A program made the translations under genes and the position numbers. The notes beneath the pieces were generated by a model. That model was not told the DNA's origin. It worked only from the letters and a program-made list of their open reading frames with translations, and did no database searches. A DNA stretch of 50,806 bases from Opitutaceae bacterium (GTDB taxonomy: Bacteria; Verrucomicrobiota; Verrucomicrobiia; Opitutales; Opitutaceae), in the NCBI GenBank assembly GCA_024711005.1, contig JANJTQ010000256.1, positions 1 through 50,806 on the forward strand, written 5' to 3'. Numbering within the stretch: the stretch's first letter is position 1; every line of letters starts with the position of its first letter. Of the stretch, positions 18,643 to 34,529 are shown one piece after another.

Positions 18643-18693
18643 AGCCTGGAAACGGCAGTCGAGCGGCCCCGATTCGACTGCCGTTTCCAGGCT
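18643..18693. repeat. Perfect 20-bp inverted repeat after the LacI-type gene
   Basis: AGCCTGGAAACGGCAGTCGA (18643-18662) is repeated in perfect inversion at 18674-18693, with an 11-nt loop. It lies 31 bp downstream of the LacI-type gene's stop on the - strand. No U-run follows, so it may be a repeat element, an RNA-stabilising hairpin or an atypical terminator. Confidence 0.7.
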
Positions 18694-18723: not shown

Positions 18724-19794
18724 TCACCTCACGACCGGTAAAGAGGGGTGATCCCTCCAGACCCCCTCCACGCTGGAGAGGATGGGCATGGAGGGGATAC
18801 CTCGCTGATTGTGCAGGATCTGGGCGGAGAGCACGTCCACCATCAATTTGCCTGAATGGTAGAATTGTGGGTCGATTCCCGCGCACGGTTCATTCTCCAC
18901 CCAGTCCAGCACAGCCAAGGGGAGGCCGAGTTCCTTGAGGATATCTTCGATGCCGGGGGGGCTGCCCAAGGCATGGATGATGACCACGTCCGGCCGCTCC
19001 CGCGCGGCCCATGCTTCCACCACGCGTTTACTGAACTTCGGCATCCCCATGTAGAACGGGGCAACCCTTCCCGCATCCGGGAGCCGCGCCTGAATGTCCA
19101 GGAAGACCGAGGTCCAGAGACGATTGGAACGGGCGTTCGCCTCGTGGCTCAATACCAGTCCAATGCGTTTGTACCCCTTGCGCCGGCACATGCCGAAGGC
19201 CGTGCGAATAGCCTGAGCGTGGTTGGGCACGATCCGATGGATCGCCGGCCGGACCATGCTGTAACCAAAGGCGACGCCCGGGAACTTTGACCAATCCAGT
19301 TTTAATCGGCTCATGATGGCCATGGGCCCCACCGCAATGCCTTGCACACCGCGCGCGAGCAGCAGGCGGGTCAAGCGGGCCGAACTGGTCTCCGGCACCA
19401 TTTTGACGAGGTCCATACCATAGCCCAGCTCCCGCGCGCGCGCTTGTGCGCCCTCCAGCACCTGTAGTTGGTGCAAATACCGTACCCGTGGCGGGACAAT
19501 GAACGCCAAGTTCGACCGATAGCGCTTGGTGCCTTGGGATCGGATCTGCTGAAGGAACGCGGAGGCCGCCGGGTTCGGGGTATACCCCAGATCCCGAGCC
19601 GACTGTTGAACGCGCTGGCGCGTGGCTTCGCTGACCAGCCGACTATCCTTCAGCGCCAGCGCCACCGTGGTCTTGCCCAGATTCAACCGCCTGGCCAGCC
19701 CTCTTATGTTGAGGCCGCCGTCGGGGCCGTCGGACCGGACCGGCTCACTCTCCCGTTCAAAGAAGGCGTCGTCGTCTGAGACGGATGCGGACAT
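18724..19794 (-). CDS. LacI-type transcriptional regulator, atypical hinge
   Basis: A 356-aa DNA-binding regulator. After a 27-residue acidic extension comes a LacI-type helix-turn-helix (L-N-I-R-G-L-A-R-R-L-N-L-G-K-T-T-V-A-L-A, then L-G-Y-T-P-N-P-A). The usual hinge helix before the sugar-binding core is not recognisable; instead there is F-L-Q-Q-I-R-S-Q-G-T-K-R-Y. The core (about 90-350) has the periplasmic-binding-protein fold signatures K-G-Y-K-R-I-G-L-V-L and R-P-D-V-V-I-I-H-A-L. It is transcribed in the same direction as the GH16 gene, 276 bp upstream of it, and probably controls it. The start could be a little downstream (for example the GTG before R-S-D-G-P). Confidence 0.87.
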   Translation of the reverse strand: MSASVSDDDAFFERESEPVRSDGPDGGLNIRGLARRLNLGKTTVALALKDSRLVSEATRQRVQQSARDLGYTPNPAASAFLQQIRSQGTKRYRSNLAFIVPPRVRYLHQLQVLEGAQARARELGYGMDLVKMVPETSSARLTRLLLARGVQGIAVGPMAIMSRLKLDWSKFPGVAFGYSMVRPAIHRIVPNHAQAIRTAFGMCRRKGYKRIGLVLSHEANARSNRLWTSVFLDIQARLPDAGRVAPFYMGMPKFSKRVVEAWAARERPDVVIIHALGSPPGIEDILKELGLPLAVLDWVENEPCAGIDPQFYHSGKLMVDVLSAQILHNQRGIPSMPILSSVEGVWRDHPSLPVVR

Positions 19795-23035: not shown

Positions 23036-23896
23036 ATGTCTTCGCCTTCCCAAGCCCTCACACGTTCGCGCATCGTGTTGCAAAGCTCGGCGGTCACCCC
23101 GCTCGGCGCGATCAAGCTGGCCGGCTTTATCGAGAACAGCCGGGGCGCGGAGCAAGGCGCGGGACGCCGGCTGGGTCAGTATGCGCTGGTGTATTCACTG
23201 CGTGGATCCTGCGACTATTGGGATGAACACAATGGCAGGCGGACCGTGCGACCGGGCGAGGCGTTTTTTCTCTTCCCTGAAATCGCGCATCGTTACGGCG
23301 CGAAAGACGACGCCGGTTGGGACGAGTTCTTCATCGTGTTCGAAGGGCCGCTCTTCGATCTCTGGCGAACCCAGGGATTGATCGCGCCCGAGCGGACCTT
23401 CCTGACGCTGCAACCGGTGGACCATTGGCTGCGGCGTTGGGAGAGCTGTCTGGAAACGCGCGGTCTGGTCGGACGGGACGCGGCGTTGCGACAAGTGACC
23501 GCGTTGCAGGCAACGGTGGTCGACGCGCTCGCGGCCGGCAGCGGAACGGGCAAAGGGAAAGCCACCCCGGAGTGGATCGAACTGGCATGCGCGGCGCTGA
23601 ACGCCGAAGGAGCGCAAGCACTCCGGCTGCCACGATTGGCACGCTCGCTGGGTGTGTCGTTCGAAACCTTCCGCAAGCGTTTCACCGAGGTGGTCGGCAT
23701 GTCTCCGGGAGCGTATCGAAGCGCGCGCCTGGTGGACGAAGCGGGAAGCCTGCTCGCGACGGGACGATTAACCGGCAAGGAAATCGCGGCGCGTCTGGGT
23801 TTCGCGGACGAGTATCATTTTTCGCGGCGCTTCAAGGCGTTGTCCGGCATGACGCCCACGGCCTTCCGACAGCGCGTGCAAGGCGGCAACGGCTGA
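23036..23896 (+). CDS. AraC-family transcriptional regulator
   Basis: A 286-aa regulator. Residues about 15-150 form a cupin-like ligand domain (Y-S-L-R-G-S-C-D-Y-W, R-P-G-E-A-F-F-L-F-P). Residues about 185-283 hold the two helix-turn-helix units: L-P-R-L-A-R-S-L-G-V-S-F-E-T-F-R-K-R-F and G-K-E-I-A-A-R-L-G-F-A-D-E-Y-H-F-S-R-R-F-K. It is divergent from the RraA-dehydratase-SDR operon with only 83 bp between starts, so it most likely activates that operon in response to its sugar. Confidence 0.93.
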   Translation: MSSPSQALTRSRIVLQSSAVTPLGAIKLAGFIENSRGAEQGAGRRLGQYALVYSLRGSCDYWDEHNGRRTVRPGEAFFLFPEIAHRYGAKDDAGWDEFFIVFEGPLFDLWRTQGLIAPERTFLTLQPVDHWLRRWESCLETRGLVGRDAALRQVTALQATVVDALAAGSGTGKGKATPEWIELACAALNAEGAQALRLPRLARSLGVSFETFRKRFTEVVGMSPGAYRSARLVDEAGSLLATGRLTGKEIAARLGFADEYHFSRRFKALSGMTPTAFRQRVQGGNG

Positions 23897-23912
23897 GCCG
23901 TCTCCGAATATA

Positions 23913-23930
23913 AATACAATTTATTGGATT
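23913..23930. promoter_or_regulatory. Putative LacI-type operator, site 1
   Basis: AATACAATTTATTGGATT is a near-palindrome (core CAAT-TT-ATTG) in the promoter region of the LacI-type gene, 55 bp before its ATG. An exact inverted copy lies at 25059-25076, at the far end of the same gene. Its AT-rich character stands out in this G+C-rich window. Confidence 0.7.
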
Positions 23931-23985
23931 TTAAACCGGAGGCGTTGCCTCGGAGCACGGTCCCGGACACACGGTTAAGCGCCCC

Positions 23986-25068
23986 ATGCCCCGTCGCATT
24001 ACCCTTCGCCTCATCGCCACCCAGGCGGAAGTGGATATTTCCACCGTGAGCCTGGCCCTCCGAAACAGCCCGCGGGTGCGGCCGTCGACCCGCGACCGTA
24101 TCCATAAAATAGCTACAAGTCTGGGTTACGAGCCCGACGCCGCCCTGGCCGCCCTCGTCGCCTACCGCAACGGTGTCCGCGCGTCGTCCTACCAATCAAC
24201 CCTTGCCTGGCTCGACAACTGGCCCGCGCACGGAGCGCTGCGCAAGATCGCTGCATTCAACGAATACTTTCTCGGCGCGGCCGAACGTGCGGCACAGTTC
24301 GGCTACAAACTGGACGAATTCTTCCTGAGATCCACCGGCCTTAGCCCCGCCCGCGTGGCCGACATCCTGCGCGCGCGCAACATCCAGGGGCTCATCGCCG
24401 CTCCCCAGCAGCATGACGGCGAAAAACTCAACTTCGACTTCACCGGCTTCTCCGCCGTCGCACTCGGCTACAGCCTGCGCCCGGCCTCGCTGCACGTTGT
24501 CACCAACCACCAGTTTCTTTCGGTAACACTGGCGGTGGACCGGCTCCGAGCCCTCGGCTATCGACGGATCGGTCTTTTCCTGCACGCCGACTGGGACAAC
24601 AAGGTGAACCATGGCTATAGCGCCGGGTTCATCACGGCGCAAAAGAGCTTCCCCGAAAAGGACCGCCTCGTCCCACACCTCTTCGAGGACGCTGGAGTTT
24701 CGGCCGATAAATTCCACGCCTGGGTCACGCGTGAGCGGCCCGATGCCATCATCACCCAAGGCCTTCATCCGGAACTGATCTCTTTTTTAAAAACGATCGG
24801 ACTGCGGGTGCCCCGCGACATCGGCCTGGTTGATCTGAGCGCGCCCCGCGACAAGCCCGAGATCTCCGGCGTCTATCAAAACAATCGCCTGATAGGCGCC
24901 ACCGCCGTGGACCTCATCATCGGCATGCTTCATCGCAACGAGCGCGGACTTCCCGGCACCATCGTCTACACCTTGGTGGACGGCGTCTGGCAGCCCGGCA
25001 AAAGCGTGCGCTCGCATCCGCCCGGACGAACCCGCCCCAAACCACCCGGCATCGCACGAATCCAATAA
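23986..25068 (+). CDS. LacI-type transcriptional regulator heading the second glycan locus
   Basis: A 360-aa repressor. The N-terminal helix-turn-helix reads I-T-L-R-L-I-A-T-Q-A-E-V-D-I-S-T-V-S-L-A-L-R, followed by L-G-Y-E-P-D-A. As in the regulator at 18724-19794, the classical hinge helix is replaced by A-L-V-A-Y-R-N-G-V-R. The sugar-binding core includes L-G-Y-R-R-I-G-L-F-L and R-P-D-A-I-I-T-Q-G. Perfect inverted copies of an 18-bp site lie upstream and across the stop codon, which points to autoregulation and control of the genes from 25120 on. The last codons (I-Q-stop) are part of operator site 2. Confidence 0.92.
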   Translation: MPRRITLRLIATQAEVDISTVSLALRNSPRVRPSTRDRIHKIATSLGYEPDAALAALVAYRNGVRASSYQSTLAWLDNWPAHGALRKIAAFNEYFLGAAERAAQFGYKLDEFFLRSTGLSPARVADILRARNIQGLIAAPQQHDGEKLNFDFTGFSAVALGYSLRPASLHVVTNHQFLSVTLAVDRLRALGYRRIGLFLHADWDNKVNHGYSAGFITAQKSFPEKDRLVPHLFEDAGVSADKFHAWVTRERPDAIITQGLHPELISFLKTIGLRVPRDIGLVDLSAPRDKPEISGVYQNNRLIGATAVDLIIGMLHRNERGLPGTIVYTLVDGVWQPGKSVRSHPPGRTRPKPPGIARIQ

Positions 25069-25076
25069 ATTGTATT
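25059..25076. promoter_or_regulatory. Putative LacI-type operator, site 2
   Basis: AATCCAATAAATTGTATT is the exact reverse complement of site 1 at 23913-23930. It overlaps the stop codon of the LacI-type gene and lies 44 bp before the pseudopilin gene, where a repressor could block the downstream operon. Confidence 0.7.
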
Positions 25077-25119
25077 CCGCTGCTCTTCTATCGCTCAGCG
25101 GATGCGCTAGATTTGGACC

Positions 25120-25875
25120 ATGCCTCACATACCCCCCAAGGCAGTCTCCACCGCGGATTACGGCAGCCGTGCATTCACTCTGGTCGAGCTGCTCACCGTC
25201 ATCGCCATTGTCGCGGTGCTCGCCAGCCTCGCCCTCGTCGGACTGGGCAGCATCCGCAACTCGGCCCGCAACACCAAATGCACCTCCAACCTCCGGGAGA
25301 TTGGCACCGCCTTCCAACTTTATGCCGCCGACAATCGCGGCGTGTATCCCGCCCTGCGGGGCAACGCATCGGGCATCAATCCGAATCCATCCGGCGGCAA
25401 CTGGATGCGTGAAATCAGTCCGTACGTTTTTCGCGACGTCAACGCCAGCGGACAGGTCGCCAGCACGGCCGATATCAAAAGAACCGGCGAGACGACCAAT
25501 GTAATCCACTGCCCGTCCTACGATCTCCTTTTCCCCACCATCGGAGATTTGGTTGCCACACCCTACCAAACCTCCGGTTACGGCATGAATGCCTGTCTGA
25601 ACATTCCCGGGGTCGGCGGCAGCATGACCTACGACAACCGCTACAAGGCCGCATCCTTGAGCTACCCGTCCCGCACCGTGCTAGTGGGGGACAGCGTGAA
25701 CTACCACATCGATGTGCAAACCCCCAAGTGGACGACGGTGACCAATACCGTAGAGGGTTATTATACCGGCGCGCCCACGCGGCATGGCTCCACCGCCAAC
25801 TATCTTTTCGCCGACGGCCACGTGAACGCGCTCACCCCCGATGCCGCGCTGGCGGTCTTACCGCCCCGCAAATAA
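25120..25875 (+). CDS. Type II secretion-like pseudopilin with H-X9-DG motif
   Basis: A 251-aa protein with a prepilin-type N-terminus: after G-S-R-A the mature part starts F-T-L-V-E-L-L-T-V-I-A-I-V-A-V-L (residues 19-34), including the conserved Glu at mature position 5. The C-terminal part has R-H-G-S-T-A-N-Y-L-F-A-D-G-H-V, the H-X9-DG motif common in Planctomycetes and Verrucomicrobia pseudopilins. Such proteins are surface or pseudopilus components of uncertain function. It follows operator site 2 and precedes a deacetylase-like gene by 5 bp, so it is likely the first regulated gene of the locus. Confidence 0.92.
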   Translation: MPHIPPKAVSTADYGSRAFTLVELLTVIAIVAVLASLALVGLGSIRNSARNTKCTSNLREIGTAFQLYAADNRGVYPALRGNASGINPNPSGGNWMREISPYVFRDVNASGQVASTADIKRTGETTNVIHCPSYDLLFPTIGDLVATPYQTSGYGMNACLNIPGVGGSMTYDNRYKAASLSYPSRTVLVGDSVNYHIDVQTPKWTTVTNTVEGYYTGAPTRHGSTANYLFADGHVNALTPDAALAVLPPRK

Positions 25876-25880
25876 TCCCT

Positions 25881-27230
25881 ATGAACCGCCCTCGTCTTCT
25901 TCCAGCCTGCGTTCCTTCTTTGTCCGTCCTCGTCCTGGCCGCGATCACCCACGCGGTGCCGCCGGCGGCCATCGAGTCGCAACTCCTGACCAATCCCGGC
26001 TTCGAACAGGGGTTGGTCGGCTGGACGGTTGCCGAGAACGACGTCCTCATGAGCACCGTGACAGCCTCGGCCGCCCGCCAAGGTGGATTCGGGCTCCATA
26101 TCGATGATGCCGATGGCAAACTAGGCTCCAGCGTCGAGAGCACTCCTCTGCCCGTGGTCCCCGGACGCTCCTATCGCCTCAGTTTTTATGCCCGCTCTCC
26201 CGGCCAGAGCGACGGCTGTGGTGTCTACCTCCGCTTCCGCAACGATCTTCAGCGCCTCATTCCCAGTTCCCCGGCGACGGCGTCAATCCCCGCCAATACC
26301 TCCGCCTGGAAGGCCTTCACGTTCGAAACGGTCGCTCCCGCCGATGCCGCTCTCGTCTCGGTGTGGATCCATTCCTACAGCACCACCACCGGCATCTGGG
26401 AGGTCGACGATGTCACGCTGGAAGAACTCGACGGACCCGGCGGCACCCCCGTCGCTCCGACCGCGGTCGCCACTCCCGTTGCCGCCGCCAAGCCCGCGGC
26501 CGCTCCCGCCCCGCTGCCGCCGCTACCCGCCTCGCCCCCCGCGATCGTGCTCAAACTCGACGACCTCGTCAGCACGCGCGAGGGCGACGTGGCTCCACGT
26601 TGGAAACGCATCACCGACTTCGCCCTCGAACGCAAAATCAAGCTCTCCATCGGCATCATCGCCGACTCACTCGAAGGCGATAAACCCGCCTATTTCGCCT
26701 ACATCAAGGGACTCCAGAACACGGGTCTCTTCGAATTTTGGTTTCACGGCTACGACCACAAGGCGTGGCAGGAGGGCGACCGAAAGCTGAGCGAATTCCA
26801 AGGCACCCCGTACGAGCGTCAGAAGGATCATTTCGAAAAATCCCAGGCACTCGCCCGCGAGAAATTGGGCTTCGCCTTCACCACCTTCGGCGCGCCCTTC
26901 AATGCCAGCGACGCCGTCACCAGCCGGGTGCTCTCCGAGAACGCCGACATCAAGGTCCTCCTCTACGGTAATCCCGGCGACAAGGTCTCCGGCAAGATTG
27001 TCCTCGATCGTGTCGGACCGGTGAACATCGAGGCGCCCCTCTTCGTTCCCAGTGCGGACAAATTCATCTCTGGCTACCTCCAGCATGCCAAAGGCCGCGA
27101 CTACTATGTCATCCAAGGCCACCCCGCGCAGTGGGACGACGCCCGCTGGACCGAGTTCGTGAAACTTGTCGACTACCTCTCCGCGAACCGGATCCCCGTC
27201 GTCACCCCGACCGAAGCCGCCGCGTTGTAA
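25881..27230 (+). CDS. Secreted CBM + polysaccharide deacetylase-like protein
   Basis: A 449-aa exported protein. The start at 25881, 5 bp after the pseudopilin, gives a signal peptide ending near residue 25. Residues about 30-185 form a CBM4/9-like beta-sandwich (L-L-T-N-P-G-F-E-Q-G-L-V-G-W ... I-W-E-V-D-D-V-T-L). A Pro/Ala-rich linker spans about 190-220. The C-terminal domain resembles NodB/CE4-type or DUF2334-like deacetylases: I-V-L-K-L-D-D-L with the metal-binding Asp pair, then F-H-G-Y-D-H-K-A-W with an H-x-x-x-H pair, and a late I-Q-G-H-P. It may deacetylate a bound polysaccharide; no substrate can be named. Confidence 0.85.
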   Translation: MNRPRLLPACVPSLSVLVLAAITHAVPPAAIESQLLTNPGFEQGLVGWTVAENDVLMSTVTASAARQGGFGLHIDDADGKLGSSVESTPLPVVPGRSYRLSFYARSPGQSDGCGVYLRFRNDLQRLIPSSPATASIPANTSAWKAFTFETVAPADAALVSVWIHSYSTTTGIWEVDDVTLEELDGPGGTPVAPTAVATPVAAAKPAAAPAPLPPLPASPPAIVLKLDDLVSTREGDVAPRWKRITDFALERKIKLSIGIIADSLEGDKPAYFAYIKGLQNTGLFEFWFHGYDHKAWQEGDRKLSEFQGTPYERQKDHFEKSQALAREKLGFAFTTFGAPFNASDAVTSRVLSENADIKVLLYGNPGDKVSGKIVLDRVGPVNIEAPLFVPSADKFISGYLQHAKGRDYYVIQGHPAQWDDARWTEFVKLVDYLSANRIPVVTPTEAAAL

Positions 27231-29148: not shown

Positions 29149-30453
29149 ATGAAAAACCAAGTCCCCACCGTCTCCCGCCTCGCCGCGTCTAGCGCCCTCG
29201 CCGCGCTATTGTCCGTCTCGCTTCCCTTCGCCTCCGCCGCCGACCTCACCTGGGCCACCGGCACCGCCGGCACTTGGGATACCACCAACACCTCAGCATG
29301 GAACCCCGGTCCCGTTGCGTGGAATAACGCCGGCAACGACACCGCCGTCTTCGGCGGTGCCACTTACACCGTGTCGATCGCCGCCGACACCGCCATTTCC
29401 GCGGGAGCGATCTCCTTGAATTCCGGCAGTAACATCACCATCAGCGGCGGAACCGGATCGTCGCTCACGCTCGCCGGCGCCACGCCGACCATCGGCGGAC
29501 TCGGCAACACGACCCTGTCCATCGCCCTCCAAGGCTCGAACGGTTTGACCAAGTCCGGAAGCGGAATTTTGCGACTTAACACCGCGGCCACCTACACCGG
29601 CGACACCAGCCTCTCCGCTGGTCAGCTCACCCTCGGTGTCACCAATGGCCTGTCCACCAGCACCAAACTGACCATGTCGACCGGCACGTTTTTCAGCCTT
29701 CAGAGCCACAGCCAGTCGCTCACGGGACTGGCCGGTGTTGGCACTGTTCGCACCACTTCCGGCAGCACGTCGAAGCTCACGATCACCGGCGGCACCACCG
29801 ATACGTTCAGCGGAAGCATCAACGACGGTGCCAACGTCGGCATCGCCCTCAGCCTCGAACGCGCCGGCACCGGCACCACCAACCTAAACGGCACCAATGC
29901 CTACCGCGGCACCACCACCGTCTCCGGCGGCGAGCTTCGCCTCGGTTCCAACTTGACCGGTACCAGCTCCGTCACCGTCAGCGGCGGCAGCCTCACCAGC
30001 TCCGTCGCCAGCGTGAACCTAGGCCTCGGCGCCGTCACGATGACCGGTGGTGAGATTTCGGCCAACGGCGCCTCCATTGGCACCTTCACCCTCGCCTCCG
30101 GCCAGGACTTCACCGCTTCGCTCGCCTCGCTTAACTTCACCCTCGGCGCGGCCACCTCCGACCAGATCATTGGCTCCGGCCCCGACAGTGTATTCAGTGT
30201 CTCGGGGATCACTCTCGCCCTCGACGGTGCCACCTCGGTCGCCGGTACCTACACGCTCTTCAGCGGATTCACCGGCGCCAACGTCGTATCCGGCGTCACC
30301 ATCACCGGCCTGGATGCCGGCCTCACCGGCGTGCTCGACACCAACGGCGTCCTCACCGTCACCGCCATCCCCGAACCCTCCACCTACGCCATCCTCGCCG
30401 GAGCCCTCACCCTGGGCTTCGTCTCCGTCCGCCGCCGTTCCTCTGTCCGCTGA
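29149..30453 (+). CDS. PEP-CTERM protein with autotransporter-associated beta-strand repeats
   Basis: A 434-aa exported protein. Signal peptide near residues 1-27 (S-L-P-F-A-S-A-A-D). The mature part starts L-T-W-A-T-G-T-A-G-T-W-D-T-T-N-T, the usual opening of autotransporter-associated repeat proteins, and contains strand repeats such as G-L-T-K-S-G-S-G-I-L-R-L and T-Y-T-G-D-T-S-L-S-A-G-Q-L-T-L. It ends with I-P-E-P-S-T-Y, a hydrophobic helix and V-R-R-R-S-S-V-R. It is the second full PEP-CTERM gene of the window. Its place between two beta-helix genes suggests a surface or matrix role tied to the same glycan. Confidence 0.93.
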   Translation: MKNQVPTVSRLAASSALAALLSVSLPFASAADLTWATGTAGTWDTTNTSAWNPGPVAWNNAGNDTAVFGGATYTVSIAADTAISAGAISLNSGSNITISGGTGSSLTLAGATPTIGGLGNTTLSIALQGSNGLTKSGSGILRLNTAATYTGDTSLSAGQLTLGVTNGLSTSTKLTMSTGTFFSLQSHSQSLTGLAGVGTVRTTSGSTSKLTITGGTTDTFSGSINDGANVGIALSLERAGTGTTNLNGTNAYRGTTTVSGGELRLGSNLTGTSSVTVSGGSLTSSVASVNLGLGAVTMTGGEISANGASIGTFTLASGQDFTASLASLNFTLGAATSDQIIGSGPDSVFSVSGITLALDGATSVAGTYTLFSGFTGANVVSGVTITGLDAGLTGVLDTNGVLTVTAIPEPSTYAILAGALTLGFVSVRRRSSVR

Positions 30454-30479
30454 ATCTCCCCTGCCTCGGGCTTTCTCCC

Positions 30480-30501
30480 GAAGTCGGTTCGAAGTCGGTT
30501 C
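30480..30501. repeat. Tandem duplication of an 11-mer
   Basis: GAAGTCGGTTC occurs twice head to tail (30480-30490, 30491-30501), followed by a third degenerate unit that merges into the terminator stem. It looks like slippage next to the terminator. Confidence 0.7.
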
Positions 30502-30532
30502 GAAGGCGGTCCTCCCGGGCCGCCTTCGTTTT
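30501..30532 (+). terminator. Rho-independent terminator after the second PEP-CTERM gene
   Basis: CGAAGGCGG (30501-30509) pairs with CCGCCTTCG (30520-30528) around a 10-nt loop and is followed by TTTT. It would end or attenuate the transcript from the LacI/pseudopilin operator before the second beta-helix gene. Confidence 0.85.
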
Positions 30533-30556
30533 GTTCCTCCACACCACTCGTTCCCC

Positions 30557-32188
30557 ATGCACCGGTTCCCACTCATCGCACTCCTCTCTCTCCTCTCCGC
30601 CGGAGGAGTTCAGTCGGCCCCGGCCTGGCGCTCCGCCCTCTACCCTGAGGACTGGCGACCCGGCCAGGTCGATGCCGCCGGGCGCTTCCTCCATGATTTT
30701 TCCCACGCGGGCTATCACCGCGGCGACCAGCCCATCCCCGACGTCGCCGGTCCGGTGACCGATGTCACCCAGCCTCCCTACAACGCCGACAACACCGGCG
30801 CCACCGACACCACGCGGGCCTTGCAGCAGGCCATCGACGCGGTCGGCCGCGCTGGCGGCGGCGTTGTCTATCTTCCCGCCGGCACCTACCGGATCGCCCC
30901 TCAAGACGCCGACAACTTCGCCTTGGGAATCCGCGACGATCGCGTGGTCCTGCGCGGAGCGGGCGCCGGCCGCACCTTTCTTCTCAACCACTCCACCCGG
31001 ATGCGCGACAAGTCCGTCATCAGCCTCGCGGCCCGGTCCGCCTGGTGGAACTCCGGCTCCAAGGAAGTCCCCGGCGTCCTCCTCACCGCCGACCTGTCCG
31101 GTCCCTCCAACGTCATTCCCGTGGCCGACGTCACCCCGTTTTCCGTCGGCGAACTCGTGGCCGTGCGCAACAACATCACCCAATCCTACATCGACCGGCT
31201 CGGCATGACCGGCAAGTGGACCGCCGGCCACCCGGGCAACCGACCGCTTGTCTACGCCCGCCGTATCCTGTCCATCGATACGGAGCAACGCACGCTCACC
31301 CTCGACATTCCGGTTCGCGGATTTCTTTTCACCGCCGATCAGGCCCGGGTCGTCAAGACCACCGGCCGCATGCTCTCCGAAGTCGGCCTGGAGGATTTCT
31401 CCATCGGCATGGTTCGGCATCCCGGCGCCACCTTCGCCGACGACGCCTATGGAAAAGCCGGAACCGCCGCCCACGACGTCCACGCCTCCAACGCTCTCTC
31501 GCTCACCTTCGTCGAGAACGCCTGGGTCCGCCGCGTCCATACGTACGCCCCCGCGGGCAACGACGCCAATGTCCACGTACTCTCCAATGCCCTCCGGCTC
31601 TCGAACACCCGTTTGGTCACGATCGCCGACTGCGACTTCAAGTTCCCCCAATACCGCGGCGGCGGCGGCAACGGCTATCTCTACTGTCTCAATGCCCAGG
31701 ACAATCTCGTCCGCGACTGCAAGGCCGAGGGCGCGCGGCACAACTACATCTTCGGCGCCATGCACACCAGCGGCAACGTCATCCTCGATTGCACGGCCAA
31801 GGACGGAGAACTGGCGTCCGATTTTCACATGTATCTCTCGCCGGCCAACCTCTTCGACAACCTCGTTTGCGACGGGGATTTCATCGAGGCTCGCGCACTC
31901 CGTCCCTGGGGGTATCCCATGCATGGCGTCACCACCACGCAATCGGTCTTCTGGAACACCCGCGGTCTGCGCTACGCCACCACGCGCCTCGGCGCCGCCC
32001 CCGCCCTCGTCTATTCACACCAGTTCGGTGACGGCTACGTGATCGGCACGCGCGGCCCCGCGCATGCCGTCGACTCCAGCGATTTCGTGGAGGGTGTCGG
32101 CACCGGCGACACGCTCGTTCCCCGCTCCCTTTATCTCGATCAACTCGGCCGCCGTCGCGACCGGCCCGCCTCGGCGCCTTCTCCCTGA
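30557..32188 (+). CDS. Secreted GH28-related / pectate lyase 3-type beta-helix protein
   Basis: A 543-aa protein. The start at 30557 gives a signal peptide (L-L-S-L-L-S-A-G-G-V-Q-S-A); the open frame upstream overlaps the PEP-CTERM gene. The block D-T-T-R-A-L-Q-Q-A-I-D-A-V...G-G-G-V-V-Y-L-P-A-G-T-Y is the N-terminal signature of the Pectate_lyase_3/GH28-related fold. Later turns have Asn/Asp ladders (N-A-L-R-L-S-N-T-R, N-V-I-L-D-C-T-A-K-D-G). The GH28 catalytic Asp set is not evident, so it may be a lyase or another beta-helix enzyme. It precedes the fucosidase gene by 12 bp. Confidence 0.82.
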   Translation: MHRFPLIALLSLLSAGGVQSAPAWRSALYPEDWRPGQVDAAGRFLHDFSHAGYHRGDQPIPDVAGPVTDVTQPPYNADNTGATDTTRALQQAIDAVGRAGGGVVYLPAGTYRIAPQDADNFALGIRDDRVVLRGAGAGRTFLLNHSTRMRDKSVISLAARSAWWNSGSKEVPGVLLTADLSGPSNVIPVADVTPFSVGELVAVRNNITQSYIDRLGMTGKWTAGHPGNRPLVYARRILSIDTEQRTLTLDIPVRGFLFTADQARVVKTTGRMLSEVGLEDFSIGMVRHPGATFADDAYGKAGTAAHDVHASNALSLTFVENAWVRRVHTYAPAGNDANVHVLSNALRLSNTRLVTIADCDFKFPQYRGGGGNGYLYCLNAQDNLVRDCKAEGARHNYIFGAMHTSGNVILDCTAKDGELASDFHMYLSPANLFDNLVCDGDFIEARALRPWGYPMHGVTTTQSVFWNTRGLRYATTRLGAAPALVYSHQFGDGYVIGTRGPAHAVDSSDFVEGVGTGDTLVPRSLYLDQLGRRRDRPASAPSP

Positions 32189-32200
32189 ATTCCCTCCCGA

Positions 32201-33442
32201 ATGGCAATTCGCATGAGGACTCATCACGAGTGGTTCAACGAAGCCCGCTATGGACTTCTCATCCACTGGGGGGCCCATGCCGTGGCCGGCCGGGGAGAAT
32301 GGGCGCGCAATCGCGAACGCATTCCCCGCGATGATTACTCCCGGCTCTACGCGGAGCGTTTTTCCGCGGAAAACTATGACCCGGCCGCCTGGGCCACGCT
32401 GGCAAAGGACGCCGGCATGGGCTATGTCGTGCTCACCGCGCGACATCACGACGGCTTCGCGCTGTGGCCGACGAAGACCGGCGAATTTCACGCGGGACGC
32501 ATCGGTCCCAGGCGCGACTTGGTCGGACCGTTTGTCGAAGCGATGCGCGACGCGGGATTGAAGGTGGGTCTTTATTATTCACCGGCGGACTGGAGTCATC
32601 CGGACTACCCCGGCCCGTTCTTCCGCGACTGGCCCGGAATCCACCACTGGGCCAGTGCCGAGGCGCGCGAACGCTTCATCGCCTACTACCGCGCCCAGCT
32701 GGTCGAGCTGATGACCAATTACGGGCGGATCGACTACCTTTGGTTCGACGGTTGCATTCCCCACGACCTTCACCGCCGCGAGATCAACGAGGAGTTGCTC
32801 CGCCTCCAACCGCACCTGCTCATCACCGAGCGCAACGGTCCGCCCTCGCATGTAAAGATCAGCGAGCAGGCCATCCGCGCGCCCGCCGCAGACGTGCTCT
32901 GGGAGGCTTGCGTAACGCTCAACGACAACTGGGGCTGGCATGCCGGCGACTCCCACTGGAAGGATGCCTCCGAAGTCGTCCGGATGCTGATCGAGACCGC
33001 CGCCGGTGGCGGCAACCTGCTGTTGAACGTCGGCCCGAAACCGGACGGCACGATCCCCGCGGAGTCGGCCCAAGTCCTCCGCGAGGCGGGCGCGTGGTTG
33101 CGGCGCAACCGGGAATCCATCTCCGGCTCGGAACTGTCCCCGTTCAGCTGGAACTGCTGGGGACGCGTGACCGTCCGCGGAAATCGCATCTACCTGCACA
33201 TTCGCAACGGCGTGGGCCCAGAGCTGTGCTGGGCGGAACTGAAAAACAAAGTACGCCGCGCCTGGTGGCTGAACAGCGGCGCGCCCGTGGCGTTTGAGCA
33301 AAATGGCGAGCACCTGTTCCTGCGGGGCCTGCCCGTGCCACTCCCCGACAGGCTCACGAGCACGATCGTGCTGGACGTCGTTGGAAAGCCGGGCGCGCTG
33401 ACCCCGCAAACCACGTTCTGGATTCCCGGCGAGCAGGTGTGA
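32201..33442 (+). CDS. GH29-type alpha-L-fucosidase, cytoplasmic
   Basis: A 413-aa enzyme that would release terminal alpha-L-fucose. GH29 signatures are plain: W-F-N-E-A-R-Y-G-L-L-I-H-W-G, T-A-R-H-H-D-G-F-A-L-W, the nucleophile strand Y-L-W-F-D-G with D183, L-N-D-N-W-G-W, and N-L-L-L-N-V-G-P-K-P-D-G. A small beta-sandwich follows. There is no signal peptide, so it probably acts on imported oligosaccharides. Start at 32201; a second ATG at 32213 is also possible. It sits between the beta-helix gene (12 bp) and a 2-hydroxyacid dehydrogenase (34 bp), likely one operon. Confidence 0.93.
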   Translation: MAIRMRTHHEWFNEARYGLLIHWGAHAVAGRGEWARNRERIPRDDYSRLYAERFSAENYDPAAWATLAKDAGMGYVVLTARHHDGFALWPTKTGEFHAGRIGPRRDLVGPFVEAMRDAGLKVGLYYSPADWSHPDYPGPFFRDWPGIHHWASAEARERFIAYYRAQLVELMTNYGRIDYLWFDGCIPHDLHRREINEELLRLQPHLLITERNGPPSHVKISEQAIRAPAADVLWEACVTLNDNWGWHAGDSHWKDASEVVRMLIETAAGGGNLLLNVGPKPDGTIPAESAQVLREAGAWLRRNRESISGSELSPFSWNCWGRVTVRGNRIYLHIRNGVGPELCWAELKNKVRRAWWLNSGAPVAFEQNGEHLFLRGLPVPLPDRLTSTIVLDVVGKPGALTPQTTFWIPGEQV

Positions 33443-33476: not shown

Positions 33477-34529
33477 ATGAATCCGCTCACCGAAACCCAA
33501 CCGATCGCCGCCGCCGCCGATCAGGAAACCATTCTCTTTGTCCTGACTCCGAAGGAGCAGGAGCTGTTTCTGCCGCACGCCAGGCTCGACCGGATCTCCG
33601 GCCACGATTGCATCCACGCGAACCCGGAAACGCTCAACCCCGCGCGCTGGGAGGAACTCCTCCGCGAGCGCCGGCCCACCGTGCTCCTCTCGGCCTGGAA
33701 CACGCCTCCCGTGCCCACCTCCTGGATCGAGTCCGGCGACATGTCGCTGCGCTACCTTTGCCACATCACCGGCTCGGTCAGAGGAGTCGCCCCCCGCGCC
33801 CTCTTATCTCGTGGCGTGCGCATCACAAACTGGGGACCGACGATCATCCATACGGTCGCCGAGCACGCCGTGCTCATGGTTCTGGCCCTGCTACGCGGCA
33901 CCCCTGCCTGGCCGGCCGCGACGGTTTCCGGCAAATACACGGTCGAGCTCATGCCGGTCCTCCGCACCCGCTCCCTGCGCGGCAAGCGCGTCGGACTGCA
34001 TGGCTTCGGCGCGGTCGCCCGCGAAATCGTCGCGCTGCTCAAGCCCTTCCAAGTCGATTTCATCGCCTGCTCGCAAGGCGTGCCCCGCTCGCTGTTCGAG
34101 GAACACGGAGTGGAGCCCTGCGACAACCTCGACGCGCTGTTCTCACGCAGCGACGTGCTGATCGAATGCGAAAGCCTCACAACCCAGACCCAAGGCAGCG
34201 TGACAGCCCGCATTCTCAACCGCCTCCCGCATGACGCCGTCTTCGTCAACGTCGGCCGGGCGCAGGTCGTGGACGAGGACGCGCTGATCCGGATCGCCGC
34301 CGAAAAACGCCTGCGGATCGGGCTCGACGTCTATCACCAGGAGCCACTCCCACCCGATTCCCCGCTCGCCGCGATTCCCGGACTCCTGCTCTCGCCGCAC
34401 ATCGCCGGCCCCACGTGGGACACCTTCTCGTGCTGCGGCGACCACGCTCTCGAAAACCTGCGCCGCTACCTGAACAACGAACCGCTGTCGGGCCTGGTCA
34501 CCGCCGAGATCTACGACCGCTCAACCTGA
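33477..34529 (+). CDS. D-isomer-specific 2-hydroxyacid dehydrogenase
   Basis: A 350-aa NAD(P)-dependent oxidoreductase for 2-hydroxy or 2-keto acids. The dinucleotide loop is G-L-H-G-F-G-A-V-A (173-181). Catalytic residues fit the family: R261 in N-V-G-R-A, E289 in L-D-V-Y-H-Q-E-P, and H308 in L-S-P-H-I-A-G. It follows the fucosidase gene closely and could reduce or oxidise an acid formed in sugar breakdown; D-3-phosphoglycerate or glyoxylate-type substrates are not excluded. Confidence 0.92.
   Translation: MNPLTETQPIAAAADQETILFVLTPKEQELFLPHARLDRISGHDCIHANPETLNPARWEELLRERRPTVLLSAWNTPPVPTSWIESGDMSLRYLCHITGSVRGVAPRALLSRGVRITNWGPTIIHTVAEHAVLMVLALLRGTPAWPAATVSGKYTVELMPVLRTRSLRGKRVGLHGFGAVAREIVALLKPFQVDFIACSQGVPRSLFEEHGVEPCDNLDALFSRSDVLIECESLTTQTQGSVTARILNRLPHDAVFVNVGRAQVVDEDALIRIAAEKRLRIGLDVYHQEPLPPDSPLAAIPGLLLSPHIAGPTWDTFSCCGDHALENLRRYLNNEPLSGLVTAEIYDRST

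Follow-up and report, generated by a model that had tools for sequence, protein, structure and literature searches.

Among the systems described so far, those closest to the locus analyzed here are the local regulators of the LacI/GalR set of RegPrecise, the Bacillus subtilis regulator CcpA, and the LacI-family proteins from which a recognition code has been derived. The present locus resembles the RegPrecise set (Ravcheev et al., 2014; PMC4052901) in several respects: the regulator combines an HTH with a Peripla_BP_3 domain, its predicted operator is an even palindrome located within 140–30 bp of a start codon, the neighbouring carbohydrate operon is under presumed local control, and autoregulation is probable. 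It differs from the set in that the centre of the operator is not CG, the dinucleotide reported in 1173 of the 1251 even LacI motifs (PMC4052901), in that the site next to the pseudopilin gene is fixed to within ±1 bp and lies mostly in one orientation, and in that the recognition helix reads TVSL. In the work by Camas, Alm and Poyatos (2010; PMC2978694), residues AA-15 and AA-16 are tied to operator positions NT-5 and NT-4 in the TVSR group (TVSR at AA-17 to AA-20) only. A comparable relationship is observed here, as Ser or Thr at AA-16 goes with A or T at NT-4; unlike the TVSR group, however, the protein in the window has a TVSL helix, and at NT-6 the two sides carry A and C in place of G. 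A LacI-family site upstream of a –35 box is also known from B. subtilis ackA/pta, where CcpA activates (PMC3463425); CcpA is a global regulator binding together with HPr-Ser-P, whereas the regulator in the window appears to be local.

In the open-licence literature, we found no paper joining the LacI family, an operator and Opitutaceae, none on DUF1559 and LacI, and none on the LacI family, Verrucomicrobia, a binding site and a regulon. The locus appears to be a familiar kind of local switch, the distinctive feature of which is a second site whose fixed position is repeated in relatives.

The Regulator Gene and Its Neighbourhood

The window, i.e., the whole stretch of DNA analyzed, consists of 50,806 nucleotides from an Opitutaceae bacterium (contig JANJTQ010000256.1). 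The gene at 23986..25068 (+) encodes a LacI-family regulator of 360 aa carrying a LacI-type HTH (PF00356, 42.6 bits vs. a cut-off of 27) and a periplasmic-binding-protein-like sensor domain (PF13377, 45.1 bits vs. a cut-off of 26.5). Its recognition helix is VDISTVSLAL and its hinge is YEPDAALAALVAYR. The hinge-helix leucine, which in this family inserts at the centre of the operator, is present in the segment PDAALAALV; we take the hinge Leu of this segment to be in the register of LacI Leu56, and a hinge Leu presumably stands here where LacI has Ala53.

An AraC-type regulator gene (23036..23896, +; PF12833, PF00165, PF02311) lies upstream of the lacI-type gene. Downstream, the first gene of a presumed operon (25120..25875, +) encodes a pseudopilin-like protein with an N-methylation motif (PF07963) and a DUF1559 domain (PF07596). 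The second ORF, which carries CBM_4_9 and DUF2334 domains, extends over 25728..27230 (+), although its true start, judging by reading, is probably near 25883. The run then continues on the same strand with beta-helix and PATR domains, a pectate-lyase/rhamnogalacturonase-like ORF (30047..32188, +), an alpha-L-fucosidase-like ORF (32201..33442, +) and a 2-hydroxyacid dehydrogenase-like ORF (33477..34529, +).

The window also contains a second, divergent LacI-type gene (18724-19794, –; PF00356), beside which a core-site scan detected no operator pair of the C(A/T)A-N4-T(A/T)G type. Just downstream of this minus-strand gene, a perfect 20-bp inverted repeat with an 11-base spacer (AGCCTGGAAACGGCAGTCGA) occupies positions 18643-18693; with two mismatches allowed it is unique in the genome, and with three it has one further copy. 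It is perhaps a terminator, though long and perfect for one.

The Inverted Pair of 18-mers

Site 1, the predicted operator in front of the lacI-type gene, is the sequence AATACAATTTATTGGATT at 23913-23930 on the plus strand; site 2, likewise a predicted operator, is its exact reverse complement (25059-25076, minus strand), the centres of the two identical sites being 1146 bp apart. The exact inverted pair bracketing the regulator, as described in the earlier note, was confirmed at both coordinates, and site 1 does end 55 bp before the lacI ATG. Site 2 overlaps the lacI stop codon TAA (25066-25068), as had been reported, but the gap separating it from the pseudopilin ATG is 43 bp, not 44. The 14-mer cores of the two sites are TACAATTTATTGGA at 23915-23928 and its counterpart at 25061-25074, which is separated by 45 bp from the pseudopilin ATG.

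Each copy of the 18-mer is itself an imperfect palindrome (AATnCAATnnATTGnATT), shaped like an even LacI-type operator. Taken as one site, either copy corresponds to AATnCAAT-nn-ATTGnATT, with seven of nine pairs symmetric, and the central bases are TT and AA, not CG. Since the 18-mers are nearly palindromic, an exact inverted pair is one possible appearance of two operators of a single dimeric regulator.

When up to three mismatches were allowed, the 18-mer matched nothing apart from the two known sites, either in the window, where 0/100 dinucleotide-shuffled versions contained a match, or in the whole genome (5,010,372 bases, 351 contigs, 96.56% complete; control 0). The palindromic consensus with up to two mismatches was found at four places, two of which were the known sites, vs. 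two places in the control. Assuming independent bases, the expected number of inverted 18-mer pairs in the window is about 0.002 within 1.2 kb and about 0.05 anywhere. The view that a match of this kind is very unlikely to occur by chance stands, and the genome check that had been proposed shows that the 18-mer, with only two copies, is not a dispersed repeat.

The Orthologous Locus and the Sample of Relatives

The window LacI protein was sought in 94 genomes, including its own, 70 of which gave a match at 1e-20, and in 252 genomes of the family, nine of which gave a match at 1e-85. The closest regulator among the named genomes, from an Opitutaceae bacterium, was 56% identical. The nearest orthologue (L037, in genome G010) is 67% identical and carries the recognition helix VDISTVS, as in the window; among the loci in which the helix was inspected, this helix is common to these two only. 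On the lacI side of the orthologue, GATCCAATTTATTGTAAT starts 122 bp before lacI, and on the pseudopilin side, AATCCAATTGTTTGGATT starts 20 bp past the lacI stop. In G010, lacI is followed by pseudopilin, DUF2334/CBM, PATR/PEP-CTERM, pectate-lyase-like and 2-hydroxyacid dehydrogenase genes. This is the order observed in the window, which has additional beta-helix and fucosidase ORFs in between; none of the ORFs scanned in G010 corresponds to the fucosidase-like one. This synteny supports the earlier proposal that a downstream glycan-type operon is under control of the regulator.

A scan of the G010 genome with a degenerate consensus recovered the two expected places, the remaining matches being close to background (11 forward and 17 reverse vs. 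10 and 11 in the controls), so that no further place stood out in that genome with this consensus. In the same genome, the stretch G010:C1:1921500-1941400 (L221) contains two consecutive lacI–pseudopilin–DUF2334 units, as if the module had been duplicated.

From 140 stretches taken by place, together with the loci obtained in the searches, 158 distinct lacI loci were examined.

Half-Sites and the Recognition Helix

The half-site was found to track residue AA-16, Ser occurring with CAA/TTG and Thr with CTA/TAG. The covariation was counted in 157 loci, AA-15 being classed as hydrophobic when it was F, I, V, L, Y or A. Among the loci with a hydrophobic AA-15, CAA was present in 11 of the 30 Ser loci and CTA in none of them, while CTA was present in 20 of the 47 Thr loci and CAA in two (Fisher test on these four counts, 4e-7, a value which overstates the independence of the loci, as they are related). 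With a non-hydrophobic AA-15, neither half-site was found in the 13 Ser loci, and the 12 Thr loci included two with CAA and none with CTA; with other residues at AA-16, CAA was present in 10/55 loci and CTA in 2/55. The majority of the loci, in the Ser and Thr classes alike, have no site, and none was found at L127, L141, L156, L169, L199, and L200, where the helix is of the right type.

The Ser/Thr rule was first noticed in the first set of loci, and was confined to loci with a hydrophobic AA-15 after a hold-out of 63 loci, which was nearly uninformative (Ser: CAA 3/20, CTA 0; Thr: CAA 1/9, CTA 1/9) because most of the proteins there differ at the residue preceding the Ser or Thr. The later loci in agreement with the rule are L177, L139, and L154 (Ser with CAA) and L197, L204, L202, and L150 (Thr with CTA), all of which are included in the counts; L226 and L227, from two genomes of one genus, also agree (Ser with CAA) and are outside the Fisher counts. 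L049/L188, where Thr goes with a CAA site, is an exception.

Position of the Site Upstream of the Pseudopilin Gene

A pseudopilin motif was found within 700 bp downstream of lacI in 16 of the 158 loci. These 16 pairs come from eight genomes, three belonging to the window's own genus, three to other genera of the family and two to other families of the order. In 13 of them, the operator core C(A/T)A-N4-T(A/T)G starts at –61 to –59 and the operator ends 45–47 bp before the pseudopilin start codon. The palindromy score, calculated for 14-mers in which the four central bases were left free, is highest 46 bp before the start, at a level reached by 0/2000 random shifts. The conservation of both sites around related regulators, which the earlier note had proposed to check, divides in two: the pseudopilin-side site is present in these 13/16 pairs, and a counterpart of site 1 within 400 bp before lacI in four of the 13 (L005, L037, L044, and L057).

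The pseudopilin loci L054, L097, and L158 have no operator at the 45–47 bp spacing. The start codon of L047 was chosen by hand (the second in-frame ATG, at 62 and not 53), and GTG was the only start available in L044 and L048; in L043, L046, and L047, the symmetry covers the six core bases only, without the flanks. Similar spacing also occurs before different genes: at L197, the operator is 47 bp from one of two possible starts of a Laminin_G_3 gene, the other being an earlier in-frame ATG 5 bp past the operator, and at L063 it is 48 bp before a non-pseudopilin gene. No such spacing was found before the non-pseudopilin genes of L073, L102, and L106.

The most highly conserved of the 140 columns compared in the 16 loci are –1 C (16/16), –11 A (13/16), –7 T (12/16), and –34 T (12/16), the operator columns ranking next, while in region –44..–1 only one pair of sequences exceeds 55% identity. 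The C at –1 is weak evidence, as it also precedes the lacI start in 100 of 156 cases. Leaderless genes of bacteria have been described as recognizable by a TANNNT box some 12 bp ahead of the start codon (PMC3160421), and the conserved columns downstream of the operator look like a leaderless promoter of the pseudopilin gene. Since this signal is absent from the lacI genes taken together (–11 A in 33 and –7 T in 37 of 156), the leaderless claim is limited to the pseudopilin gene.

In the window, these columns correspond to a putative –35 element CTTCTA (25085..25090, +; columns –36..–32, conserved over the 16 loci; 2/6 matches to TTGACA) and a putative –10 element TAGATT (25108..25113, +; columns –11 A and –7 T) located 6 bp before the ATG. 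The resulting reading, CTTCTA-17-TAGATT-6-ATG, is a weak match to the consensus. A sigma-70 consensus scan of 23850-25150 returned no plus-strand promoter anywhere, including at the putative –35/–10 elements, so that the promoter is placed by column conservation only. At site 1, the same scan gave two overlapping minus-strand promoter-like matches and none for lacI itself.

Proposed Mode of Regulation

Palindromy, genome-wide uniqueness, retention around the orthologous regulator, constant spacing from the pseudopilin gene and half-site/helix covariation all bear out the operator reading put forward earlier, and the 18-mers are very likely to be operators of the local LacI-type regulator. We assign a probability of about 0.8 to the reading as a whole, in which the LacI-family protein encoded between the 18-mers has these as its operators, site 1 serving autoregulation and site 2 the control of the operon. 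Control of the downstream operon from site 2 is well supported by the comparative data, and autoregulation via site 1, which recurs in the orthologue, is plausible. A dimer would bind to site 1 before its own gene and thereby regulate itself, and would bind to site 2 to control the pseudopilin-led, glycan-type operon. Site 2 would then be situated just upstream of the apparent –35 region, with the operator centre near –53, and transcription may start at or beside the pseudopilin ATG, which would make the transcript leaderless. By analogy with the family, a sugar or oligosaccharide derived from the target glycan presumably alters the binding. The regulator appears to be strictly local, as the genome search gave no third site.

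Most LacI-family regulators are repressors, and the two sites might act as independent repression sites with no loop, RNA polymerase being hindered at each promoter until the sugar relieves the block; we consider this possible, at slightly less than even odds. Among the LacI-family regulators surveyed, nearly 90% act locally and 72% are autoregulated (PMC4052901), and repression from upstream of a promoter does exist at the B. subtilis lev operon, which is given as an exception to the upstream-site activation by CcpA (PMC3463425). However, the putative –35 hexamer lies 10 bp downstream of the core of site 2 and 8 bp downstream of the 18-mer, and CcpA acts as an activator at sites upstream of –35 and as a repressor at sites that overlap the promoter or follow it (PMC3463425). 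Since site 2 lies upstream of the –35 region, activation is as open as repression. If the placement of the promoter is right, activation by contact with RNA polymerase would be slightly better as an explanation for site 2 than simple blocking.

Orientation of the Sites and the Proposed DNA Loop

Core sites are generally enriched before lacI, being found 37 times in the 31.3 kb upstream of lacI vs. seven times in 134.5 kb of lacI coding sequence (composition unmatched). L226 and L227, conversely, carry a site on the lacI side but showed no pseudopilin motif over 900 bp. The two central bases of the pseudopilin-side sites are purine-purine (RR) in 12/13 and pyrimidine-pyrimidine (YY) in 0/13, and 12 of these 13 sites have a pyrimidine-purine step displaced by one base from the dyad. 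On the lacI side (n = 37), 18 centres are YY, three are RR and 16 are mixed; the difference between the two sides, calculated on the unmixed sites, gives a Fisher value of 1.3e-6. RR centres running against this tendency on the lacI side are those of L035b, L134, and L165, as well as that of L057 (at –209). The exact inversion in the window accords with the tendency, but among the four two-site loci, the pair is cleanly inverted in the window only, the centres being YY + YR in L037, RY + RR in L044, and RR + RR, in the same orientation, in L057. At L041 (G004:C100), two operator-like sites 57 bp apart are present before one pseudopilin gene, at –117 (YY) and –60 (RR).

A more far-reaching reading is that a branch of the LacI family in this order may have become local activators of leaderless promoters, acting from directional, off-centre operators at about –53, with the pyrimidine-purine step next to the dyad and the purine-purine centre facing the target gene, and that the opposite copy before lacI may repress the regulator; this we regard as unlikely. 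The negative promoter scan and the same-orientation site of L057 slightly lower our confidence in the operator explanation as well as in the activator/orientation reading.

The earlier note favoured a loop of about 1.15 kb that would enclose lacI and couple autoregulation with control of the operon; such a loop would be formed by one LacI-type tetramer or two dimers bound to both sites. Two identical sites 1146 bp apart fit such a loop, as do the two sites of the orthologue L037, the exact inverse pair TTCTAACTGTAGAA/TTCTACAGTTAGAA around the lacI gene of L197 in another genome, and the opposite central asymmetries of the two sides. Leucine heptads are the criterion for a C-terminal tetramerisation helix of the E. 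coli LacI type. The C-terminal tail of the window LacI protein, like the other C-terminal tails inspected by eye, shows no such helix, in nine of the 13 pseudopilin-side loci the 400 bp preceding lacI contain no partner site, and the other two-site loci lack the clean inversion. The loop is not supported by these data and seems improbable.

When upstream and downstream palindromes were paired in an unbiased manner at 88 loci, a score of at least 24 was obtained in 6/88 true pairings vs. 0/434 mispaired controls, and the figures at a cut-off of 20 were 13/88 and 11/434. A simpler ungapped score gave 7/88 vs. 11/346 at 25 and 1/88 vs. 3/346 at 40, so that the window pair is equalled by some of the controls. 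Inverse pairs that are exact or nearly so, with quite different half-sites, were also seen around the lacI paralogues of L096, L098, L088, L053, L099, and L101; some of these may have arisen by chance, mispaired controls reaching up to 11/346.

Pairing of the ends of the lacI transcript as RNA, or terminal repeats of a small mobile unit, could likewise be read into exact inverse copies on both sides of one gene, but these readings were set aside as very improbable, as the pseudopilin-side site is partnerless in 9/13 loci, the half-site covaries with the recognition helix, no target-site duplication was found by reading and the genome holds no other copies. A chance repeat, which the short length of the sites alone would favour, is practically discounted by the shuffles, by the pair frequency expected within 1.2 kb and by the conservation in the orthologue.

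Implications for the LacI Family in Opitutaceae

Genomes of this family can hold many LacI-type paralogues: G017 gave 191 first-look candidates, not all of which were confirmed. The tendency of Ser and Thr to go with CAA and CTA, combined with the fixed spacing, provides a way of assigning these regulators to glycan operons. The same two features also allow a direct test of whether the position and orientation of the operator set the sign of control, and if the activator reading were true, the orientation of an operator would mark activation as opposed to repression.
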